Positions 29,607-31,769 of a stretch of 35,321 nucleotides of DNA are shown here, piece after piece. The position numbers and the translations under genes were made by a program. Within the stretch, counting starts at the first letter, position 1, and every line of letters begins with the position of its first letter. The notes beneath the pieces were generated by a model. The model was not told the DNA's origin and searched no databases. It worked only from the letters and a program-made list of their open reading frames with translations. Source of the DNA: Candidatus Cybelea palsarum (lineage in GTDB: Bacteria > Vulcanimicrobiota > Vulcanimicrobiia > Vulcanimicrobiales > Vulcanimicrobiaceae). The stretch covers positions 1 to 35,321 of the forward strand of contig PMUK01000071.1 of assembly GCA_003166915.1 (NCBI GenBank). The letters run 5' to 3'.

Positions 29607-30218
29607 ATGCTCTACGAAGACGATTTCGAGTTCGAGGAACAGCCAGCCGACGTGCGCGACCGCCCAATTCCGGGCAAGTCGGGGGGCGGAAGAAACGGCG
29701 GCGGCACTCGCCGGCGGCGCGACCCACGCCCCAGCCATACCGCGCCGCGCGATCGGCAAGATCTCCCCGATGAGGCAAAACCGGCGCGCGATTTTCTTGC
29801 CGAGTTACTCGAGCGAATGGGCGCCGGGCCGATCGACATCGAGTATATCGCGCGCCCCGAGGGTGAATATCTCGAAGTGACCGGCCCCAACCTCGGCATG
29901 TTGATCGGTCGCCACGGCAACACGTTGGAAGCGCTCAACCTCGTCTTCAACAACGTGCTCAACGCCGGTGTTCGAAACAATCGCCGATACTTTACGATCG
30001 ACGCCGAGGGTTACCGCGCCGCGCGTGCCGACCAGCTGAAAAATCTCGCGATTGCAACGCTCGAGCGCTGCGTCCGCGAGCGCTCGCCGCAGAAGCTCGA
30101 GCCCATGCTGCCGTCCGAACGGAAGATCGTTCATCTCGCAATCGCCGATTCGGAGTTGGTGCGCACGGAGTCGGAGGGAGAAGAGCCCGAACGCCGAGTC
30201 GTCATCTTTCCCCGTTGA
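29607..30218 (+). CDS. khpB: RNA-binding protein KhpB (Jag), KH and R3H domains
   Basis: 203-aa RNA-binding protein that usually works with KhpA. The KH domain spans about 65-130, with LGMLIGRHGNTLEALNLVFNN. The R3H domain is about 145-200, with EPMLPSERKIVHLAIAD containing R-x3-H. The first 60 residues are acidic then Gly/Arg rich (GKSGGGRNGGGTRRRRD) and look disordered; the folded Jag-N domain found in many relatives is not apparent. The ATG is one base after the yidC stop. Its TGA lies inside the first copy of the tandem repeat at 30212. Confidence 0.92.
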   Translation: MLYEDDFEFEEQPADVRDRPIPGKSGGGRNGGGTRRRRDPRPSHTAPRDRQDLPDEAKPARDFLAELLERMGAGPIDIEYIARPEGEYLEVTGPNLGMLIGRHGNTLEALNLVFNNVLNAGVRNNRRYFTIDAEGYRAARADQLKNLAIATLERCVRERSPQKLEPMLPSERKIVHLAIADSELVRTESEGEEPERRVVIFPR

Positions 30219-30425
30219 GCTCGCGCTCCACGGGGACCCCGAAATTTCAAACGGCGCGTCGCCCTTCGGGCTGCGCGCCCCCCAGCGGCAAAGCCGCCGG
30301 GGCCCCTCCGTTGAGCTTGCGCTCGACGGGGACCCCGAAATTTCAAAAGGCGCTTCGCCCTTCGGGCTGCGCGCCCCCCAGCGGCAAAGCCGCCGGGGCC
30401 CCCCGTTGAGCGAATGCTCGACGGG
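30212..30425. repeat. Tandem direct repeat, two full copies of about 96 bp plus a 23-bp partial copy
   Basis: Copy 1 is 30212-30307 (96 bp) and copy 2 is 30308-30402 (95 bp); they differ at four positions plus one extra base. A partial third copy is 30403-30425. Each full copy contains the near-palindrome CCGTTGAGC...GCTCGACGG, the palindromes GGGGACCCC and GAAATTTC, GCCC-TTC-GGGC, and GCGGC-AAA-GCCGC, so the RNA would fold into three or more stable hairpins. The khpB stop lies within copy 1 and the mnmE start codon lies in the partial copy. The partial copy pairs 30403-30411 with 30416-30424, putting A and U of the start codon in a four-base loop. No transposase is present. It may be a small mobile or regulatory repeat of unknown family. 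Confidence 0.9.
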
Positions 30426-31769
30426 TCTTCGACGACCATCGTCGCCGTCGCGACGCCTCCGGGAAAAGGCGCGATCGCCATCGTCCGAGCCAGTGGTCCG
30501 TCGGTCCCCGAACTCGTCCGCCGCCTAGTTCAAACGAAATCTCGCTTGCGACGCCGTGTGGCGACGTACGCGACAATCGTTGACGAGAGCGGCGACCTGC
30601 TCGACCGCGGGCTGGCGATTTTTTTCGAAGCTCCGCACAGCTACACCGGCGAGGATTTACTCGAGCTTCAGATCCACGGCTCTCCGGTGGTCGGCCGCGA
30701 AGTCGTTCGCGCGATGCTCGCATGCGGCGCTCGGCTAGCCGAGCCGGGCGAGTTCACCCGTCGGGCGTTTTTCAACGGAAAAATGGCGCTGCACGCTGCG
30801 GCCGCCGTTGCCGACATCATCGACGCGCAGACGCGCTGCGCGGCGCGCGCCGCGCTCGCGAACTTTGAGAGCGGCCTGGCGCAGGAGATTCGCGCGGTGC
30901 GCAGCGCTCTAGCGACAATCCTCCAAGACCTGGAGGGTGCGATCGACTTTCCGGACGAGGTTCCCGAGCCCGACCGTGGCGGACTCAAGGAACGGCTGGC
31001 GCCGATTCGCGCGCGTTTGGAGAGTCTTGCGCGAGACGGCGAACTCGGCCGGCTCGTGCGAGAGGGTCTCGGCGTCGCGATCGTCGGCCCACCGAACGCC
31101 GGAAAGTCGTCGCTGCTCAACGCGCTGCTGGGTACCGAACGCGCGATCGTCTCCGACATCCCAGGAACGACCCGCGATACGATCGAGGAAAGTGTGGTAG
31201 TCGACGGAGTACCGGTGCGGCTGATCGATACGGCCGGCATCCGATCCCACGCCGACCGCCTGGAGGCCCATGGCATCGCCCGCACCGAGCGCGCGCTCGA
31301 CTCGGCCACCATCGCCCTCGTCGTCGCCGATGGCTCACAACCGCCCGACTCGGCCTCAAGCCAGCTGCTCGAACGCACCCGAGACCGGCCGCGTATTCTT
31401 TTCTTAAACAAGGCCGATTTGGGAACGGACCCGGCGTTCGCGACGGCATGGCCGCACGCAATCGTTGGAACCGTACGGAATCCCGAGACCCTGGAGCGGG
31501 TACGCGACGCCATTGCCACGGCCGGCTGGAACGCCCAACGCTTTGACGCGACCCGGCCTCACCTGGCAGGGCTTCACGAGTTCGAGGCCGCGTACGCCGC
31601 GATCGCGGCGCTCGGGCGCGCCTGCGGCGCGCTTGACGCGTCCGAGCCGATCGATTTCGTGGCGACCGAGCTGGCGCACGCGTTTTCGCAACTCGGGCAT
31701 GTAAGCGAGCAGGTTGCCGCCGAAGAGATCGTCACCGGCATCTTCTCCCGGTTTTGCATCGGAAAGTGA
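30414..31769 (+). CDS. mnmE: tRNA modification GTPase MnmE
   Basis: 451-aa GTPase that with MnmG adds the carboxymethylaminomethyl group to wobble uridine 34. It has an N-terminal folate-binding domain (TIVAVATPPGKGAIAIVRASG), a helical domain, an inserted Ras-like G domain with GPPNAGKS at 225-232, GTTRDT, DTAG at 272-275 and NKAD, and the C-terminal CIGK tail with the essential cysteine. The family segment DLxQAEAV is ALHAAAAV here. The ATG lies in the loop of a repeat hairpin and has only a weak GAGCG site, so translation may be governed by that structure or by coupling with khpB. Confidence 0.94.
   Translation: MLDGSSTTIVAVATPPGKGAIAIVRASGPSVPELVRRLVQTKSRLRRRVATYATIVDESGDLLDRGLAIFFEAPHSYTGEDLLELQIHGSPVVGREVVRAMLACGARLAEPGEFTRRAFFNGKMALHAAAAVADIIDAQTRCAARAALANFESGLAQEIRAVRSALATILQDLEGAIDFPDEVPEPDRGGLKERLAPIRARLESLARDGELGRLVREGLGVAIVGPPNAGKSSLLNALLGTERAIVSDIPGTTRDTIEESVVVDGVPVRLIDTAGIRSHADRLEAHGIARTERALDSATIALVVADGSQPPDSASSQLLERTRDRPRILFLNKADLGTDPAFATAWPHAIVGTVRNPETLERVRDAIATAGWNAQRFDATRPHLAGLHEFEAAYAAIAALGRACGALDASEPIDFVATELAHAFSQLGHVSEQVAAEEIVTGIFSRFCIGK

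Follow-up and report, generated by a model that had tools for sequence, protein, structure and literature searches.

The window, a stretch of 35,321 nucleotides from the genome of Candidatus Cybelea palsarum (G000), carries the genes khpB and mnmE one after the other on the same strand. Pfam searches recovered the R3H domain of KhpB above the cut-off (8.9e-16) and a KH_KhpA-B match slightly below it (3.6e-07), as well as TrmE_N, MnmE_helical and MMR_HSR1 in MnmE, all above cut-off. The junction of the two genes is spanned by the strongest tandem array in the window (30210-30425; TRF period 96, 2.3 copies, score 367, with the runner-up scoring 54), composed of two 95/96-bp units and a 23-bp partial unit. 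Aligned without gaps, units 30212-30306 and 30308-30402 are 96% identical (4 substitutions in 95), and one extra base, T30307, separates them. The khpB stop codon falls inside the first hairpin of the array and the mnmE ATG inside the last. That such an array bridges the stop of one gene and the start of the next had been proposed in a first-pass annotation, and TRF, unit alignment and folding agree that it is real. The same annotation described the hairpin of the partial copy as having a 9-bp stem, one G-U pair and a four-base loop with the A and U of the ATG: RNA folding of this unit (30403-30425) returned the loop (GAAU, holding A30414 and U30415, with the G of the ATG paired) and the single G-U pair, and gave a stem of 10 bp in place of nine.

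Table 1. Genes and element parts at the khpB-mnmE junction.
Feature	Position	Strand	Basis or remark
khpB (KH/R3H protein)	29607..30218	+	ORF; stop TGA 30216-30218 in H1 of copy 1
Element copy 1, orientation A	30210..30306	+	TRF, direct and inverted repeats, covariance model
Copy 1, H1	30210-30235
Copy 1, GGGGACCCC end	30232-30240
Copy 1, A/T-rich linker	30241-30252
Copy 1, H2	30253-30279
Copy 1, H3	30280-30302
Copy 1, GGGGCCCC end	30299-30306
Element copy 2	30308..30402	+	96% identical to copy 1; covariance model R1
Copy 2, H1	30308-30331
Copy 2, linker	30337-30348
Copy 2, H2	30349-30375
Copy 2, H3	30376-30398
Copy 2, GGGGCCCC end	30395-30402
Partial third copy (H1 only)	30403..30425	+	stem 30402-30411/30416-30425, loop GAAU 30412-30415
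mnmE	30414..31769	+	ORF; start ATG in loop of partial copy

Read in orientation A, the ~96-nt element consists of hairpin H1, an ACCCC spacer, an A/T-rich linker (GAAATTTCAAA), hairpins H2 and H3, and a terminal CCCC. H1 and H3 each take the form CCCC-palindrome-GGGG, and the conserved H2 comprises GGCGC, an internal loop, a variable inner stem, another internal loop and GCGCC. The element ends are GGGGNCCCC and GGGGCCCCC, neither of them a GTAG or CGTC tag; the 9-nt ends GGGGACCCC and GGGGCCCCC pair mutually, yet are also self-complementary. Minimum-energy folding of copy 2 reproduces all three hairpins (z = -3.6), and at 82 bits this copy is the top match to covariance model R1 across 99 genomes; copy 1 matches with 72 bits at 30249-30307. 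Across 28 copies of the H2 + H3 core, 92% of cells were paired as compared to 79% in shuffled and 30-54% in slid controls, and two-sided changes numbered 65 versus 24 in shuffled alignments; pairing and two-sided counts can be inflated by sequence relatedness, an effect that the slid controls do not carry. In this comparison, the stem sequences drift while predicted pairing is kept in H2 and H3. An Rfam search of 14 loci (E ≤ 1) returned the host RNase P RNA and, beyond it, no more than two chance-level matches (mir-5583, 0.88; NrsZ, 0.8).

The unit had been suspected to be a miniature mobile or REP-like element, and searching the genome and its relatives for it revealed wide dispersal. One more clear copy lies in the same genome (C38:11070-11146), between genes that we take from their sequences to be paaA-like and to encode an enoyl-CoA hydratase. 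A covariance model of the H2 + H3 core found copies at E ≤ 1e-5 in 69/99 genomes of the family and 28/38 genera, with a maximum of 34 per genome (35-36 at E ≤ 1e-3), and, among 23 genomes from other families, a single weak match; most of the genomes in these searches are metagenome assemblies. When the named genome collection was scanned by pattern, at least 120 stretches were obtained, which among the matches listed stemmed mostly from Candidatus Eremiobacterota, with some from WPS-2 and Vulcanimicrobiota and a few from ‘bacterium’ MAGs; from this distribution we take the host to be a member of the same phylum. Carriage by phages was considered and dropped, there being no exact match to the pattern in IMG/VR. 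Further tandem pairs, spaced 57-127 bp apart, occur in six genomes (G077, G084, G085, G034, G020 and G117). Old, degenerate copies are numerous, and two species of genus g9 (G111 and G117, ~80% protein identity) have about 11 of 35 sites in common, at homologous genes, implying that many copies were inherited rather than newly moved. We found no description of Eremiobacterota repeats in the literature searched, coverage of which was incomplete.

Comparing the khpB-mnmE gap across relatives of the same genus revealed zero, one or two copies, remnants and one reversed copy. Compared with the two copies of G000, there is one element with a hairpin on either side in G010, and none in G003, which retains CCCCGTTGAGC-CC-TTGAGCGAATGCTCGACGGG as a remnant; MnmE is 94% identical in both. 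G016 likewise holds a remnant, G001 a copy lacking H2 and G004 a hairpin alone. In G005, the element is reversed, and a GTG-start open frame would make an N-terminal extension of MnmE. No recognisable element was seen at this junction in G002, G007, G008, G012, G013, G014 and G017. Outside the genus, G077 (L382) has the element in the same gap, as judged by the adjoining MnmE reading frame. Copies 1 and 2 differ from each other at 4 positions and from the G010 copy at 8-9, so the duplication probably occurred after the split of G000 and G010; gene conversion is another process that could produce this pattern.

Could the number of copies act as a switch on MnmE, as the first-pass annotation had offered? 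Copy number in the gap does differ among relatives, and the ATG does sit in a hairpin loop. A hairpin equal or similar to the partial third copy also adjoins mnmE in G003, G010 and G016. When natural leaders were folded, however, the same start hairpin was predicted with no copies (G003) and with two (G000), bases 1 and 2 of the AUG being open and base 3 paired, and that of G010 folded slightly differently. The predicted start pairing thus speaks against a copy-number switch, as do the many relatives devoid of a start-codon hairpin, and the divergence of the units (4/95) gives no sign of rapid copy-number cycling. We regard such a switch as very unlikely; the effect on MnmE would be near-neutral, and the element at this locus seems to be a passenger that was duplicated locally.

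The annotation had also envisaged that a native start-codon hairpin was duplicated. This stands in so far as H1 proved integral to the element, abutting its end in 29 of the 33 copies with both ends, and appears here to be built on host sequence from the khpB 3′ end. The four exceptions all belong to the paa-ech site, where the stem encloses a long loop. H1 folds far more stably than shuffled sequence (mean -17.0 versus -6.3 kcal/mol), and its sequence varies between sites. At khpB and dxr, its outer arm corresponds to one fixed native position in element-free relatives, and its inner arm mostly lacks a native match. We had considered that the inner arm might in every case be newly copied from the outer arm of the host; this was only partly borne out, since some dxr relatives match it weakly. 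Together, these patterns suggest that host sequence at the landing site completes H1, either by being copied or as a weak palindrome that is corrected by a template switch, a process described for palindromes elsewhere (PMC8794818). Template switching could likewise explain how stems change sequence with near-perfect pairing, but it would account for the upkeep of H1 and H3 and not for the dispersal of a conserved H2 core.

Alternatively, H1 might not be element DNA at all, but a native hairpin into which the element inserted and which then became duplicated on both sides. The hairpin-element-hairpin order in G010, a comparable hairpin pair in the rnpB P12 helix of G016 and G008, and the element-free hairpin of G004 are what this scenario predicts. 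Yet H1 is one-sided in most of the 33 full copies: a copy on the far side accompanies about 5/33 and is clear solely at khpB-mnmE, rnpB P12 and the paa-ech gap, and perhaps at one G034 site. For this reason, duplication of a native-hairpin target site was dropped as a general rule. Most element-free relatives lack the hairpin at khpB-mnmE as well, and that of G004 may itself be a remnant. We therefore deem insertion into a native hairpin an unlikely origin of H1 and continue to treat H1 as a part of the element that host sequence would complete.

The element has also entered genes for structured RNA and protein. In G016, G008 and G012, the RNase P RNA gene is ~100 nt longer than in sister genomes, and an alignment placed the element in P12 of G016 and G008 and in the P3 region of G006, with sister genomes devoid of it; the helices are named, presumptively, after the common architecture of class A RNase P RNA. 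G012, which is outside this alignment, has the element within its RF00010 match. Loci with the element in a peripheral helix of the RNase P RNA include L069, L072, L074 and L079, and the rnpB loci L141, L151 and L164. In dxr of G017 (L252) and G004 (L181), the reading frame remains open through the element, with the DXPR_C domain on either side, and G002 dxr has a decayed-looking copy. In dnaE of G026 (L172), a short form separates the PHP domain from the NTPase domain and keeps the reading frame. At L279:4840-4950, an orientation-A copy seems to encode the N-terminus of a permease resembling LptF/G. The starts of glmS and ruvA carry the element in either orientation, depending on the genome (L086 (G016), L294 and L347; L078 (G017), L178 and L283). 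It seems that the element is tolerated wherever function is left unbroken, be it in operon gaps, hairpins of structured RNAs or in-frame protein positions.

Given the observed dispersal, the polymorphism of the khpB-mnmE gap, the covariation and the insertions in frame and within rnpB, we consider it probable (roughly 0.8) that the array represents a small palindromic element, mobile and non-autonomous, in two tandem copies and a partial one, and that this element, dispersed in one Candidatus Eremiobacterota family, was inserted, then duplicated, at this locus. The insertion would have hit the khpB 3′ end, where host CCCCGTTGA would have come to serve as the outer arm of H1. Movement would depend on a mechanism supplied in trans, and a later local duplication in the G000 lineage, through slippage or unequal exchange, would have produced the second unit. 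Comparison of empty with filled sites gave no perfect pair in which the target was duplicated exactly.

One candidate for such a mechanism would be the RAYT tyrosine transposases that move REP and REPIN sequences. Like these sequences, the element is short, palindromic, dispersed and mostly extragenic, and it resembles REP, BIME and REPIN sequences in that palindromic repeats of small size occupy operon gaps, at times in tandem (PMC3733652). However, it is longer (~96 nt) and folds into three hairpins, its ends bear neither a GTAG nor a CGTC tag, with no GTAG at the hairpin foot, and Y1_Tnp (PF01797) is present in only 4/99 family genomes, being absent from the element carriers G000, G022, G026, G111 and G117. 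Lacking both RAYT and the tag, the unit does not qualify as a REP, strictly speaking, and we attach hardly any credence to mobilization by a RAYT; the miniature mobile, REP-like nature suggested in the first-pass annotation is supported nonetheless. The search for a mobiliser, which covered the Y1 transposase, gave no candidate. The stretch flanked by two cores in L279 likewise yielded no autonomous parent, holding just an ordinary operon gene.

With respect to the reverse orientation (B), H2 carries a GGAG Shine-Dalgarno sequence in its 3′ strand, and an ATG follows GCGCC (..GGAGCGCC) at exactly 6 nt in 55/183 copies as compared to about 2 per offset; these 183 are retrieved loci, and the proportion applies to this set, not to whole genomes. 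Orientation and position relative to the start codon are fixed in roughly one in three of these copies, mostly of other genera, but not in the genus of the window. Orientation-B elements of G022, G025 and G036 contain ..GGAGCGCC followed by ATG, and are preceded by an extra, structured-looking domain of two types. Copies that fill whole operon gaps, with GGAG and an ATG ~6 nt on, were noted at L171 and L194-L220 (G022), L177 and L221-L228 (G025), and L178, L229 and L230 (G036). Within 95 nt upstream of the core, one type of this domain resembles GAGCCC CCTCGGGGAAT .. GGGCTC and the other GGTGATGGACCGAGCGCAG .. GTTGCGAGGTCGGACC, and to the eye both seem paired and covarying. From their N-termini, we take the genes that follow to include ValS, AlaS, AtpA, NadD and YebC, unrelated housekeeping genes.

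These features raise the question of whether the element acts chiefly in cis as RNA, being a structured intercistronic leader that sets translation of the downstream gene through the GGAG in the H2 3′ strand. The 6-nt spacing, the operon gaps wholly filled by element and additional domain in G022, G025 and G036, and compensatory changes that preserve pairing all point in this direction. In other genera, moreover, ATG is favoured more strongly than would be expected of a random selfish element, which counts against the mobile-element reading. Against a primary leader function, the window copies lie in the opposite orientation, which takes the GGAG off the mnmE mRNA; further copies reside within dxr, dnaE and rnpB; the same gene (mnmE, ruvA or glmS) can harbour either orientation; and the downstream genes are functionally unrelated. 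We thus find it rather doubtful that the element is a leader first and foremost. The comparisons instead suggest that orientation-B copies of a mobile element may have been co-opted as leaders in other genera. More tentatively, and with doubt outweighing confidence, one could propose that a mobile hairpin element builds one of its hairpins by pairing with the host landing sequence and, when reversed, brings along a Shine-Dalgarno sequence, so that, time and again throughout the family, it would have come to serve unrelated housekeeping genes as a ribosome-binding leader within operons.

Turning to known systems, the mobile element recalls bacterial MITEs (Correia/NEMIS, ERIC, RUP) in being short and non-autonomous with ends that may count as inverted repeats, and in-frame fusions are known for them (PMC2229807); it differs by lacking TA ends and, as it seems from the full copies, a general target-site duplication, and no parental insertion sequence was found when the Y1 transposase and the L279 stretch were inspected. 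Rickettsia palindromic elements (RPE) are ~100-150 bp long, palindromic, non-autonomous and dispersed; their landing sites comprise conserved protein genes, where they keep the frame, and RNA genes such as that of RNase P (M1) RNA, and they have no known transposase (PMC2229807) and bear a CGTC tag at one end (PMC3733652). The present element shares the palindromic, dispersed and non-autonomous character, being slightly shorter at 96 nt, the in-frame insertions in dxr (G017, G004) and dnaE (G026) with domains continuing on both sides, and the insertions in rnpB (P12 in G016 and G008, the P3 region in G006). It departs from RPE in its ends (GGGGNCCCC and GGGGCCCCC, without CGTC), in forming three separate hairpins as opposed to one long stem-loop, and in its G+C richness, its orientation-B Shine-Dalgarno sequence and its unrelated phylum, and the likeness drawn here is one of features. 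On this analogy, the best reading is that the element would be closest in behaviour to RPE; without the CGTC tag and the single stem, we do not file it as a member.

Palindromic elements that insert in frame and are tolerated in RNA genes are familiar chiefly from Rickettsia and Wolbachia. A family behaving likewise in uncultured Eremiobacterota, some genomes of which hold dozens of copies, would make an RPE-like way of life more general. Differences in presence, absence and orientation at the same site provide natural pairs for studying how such elements arrive, and the start-codon-linked copies in sister genera may represent a selfish repeat that was turned into a translation leader.
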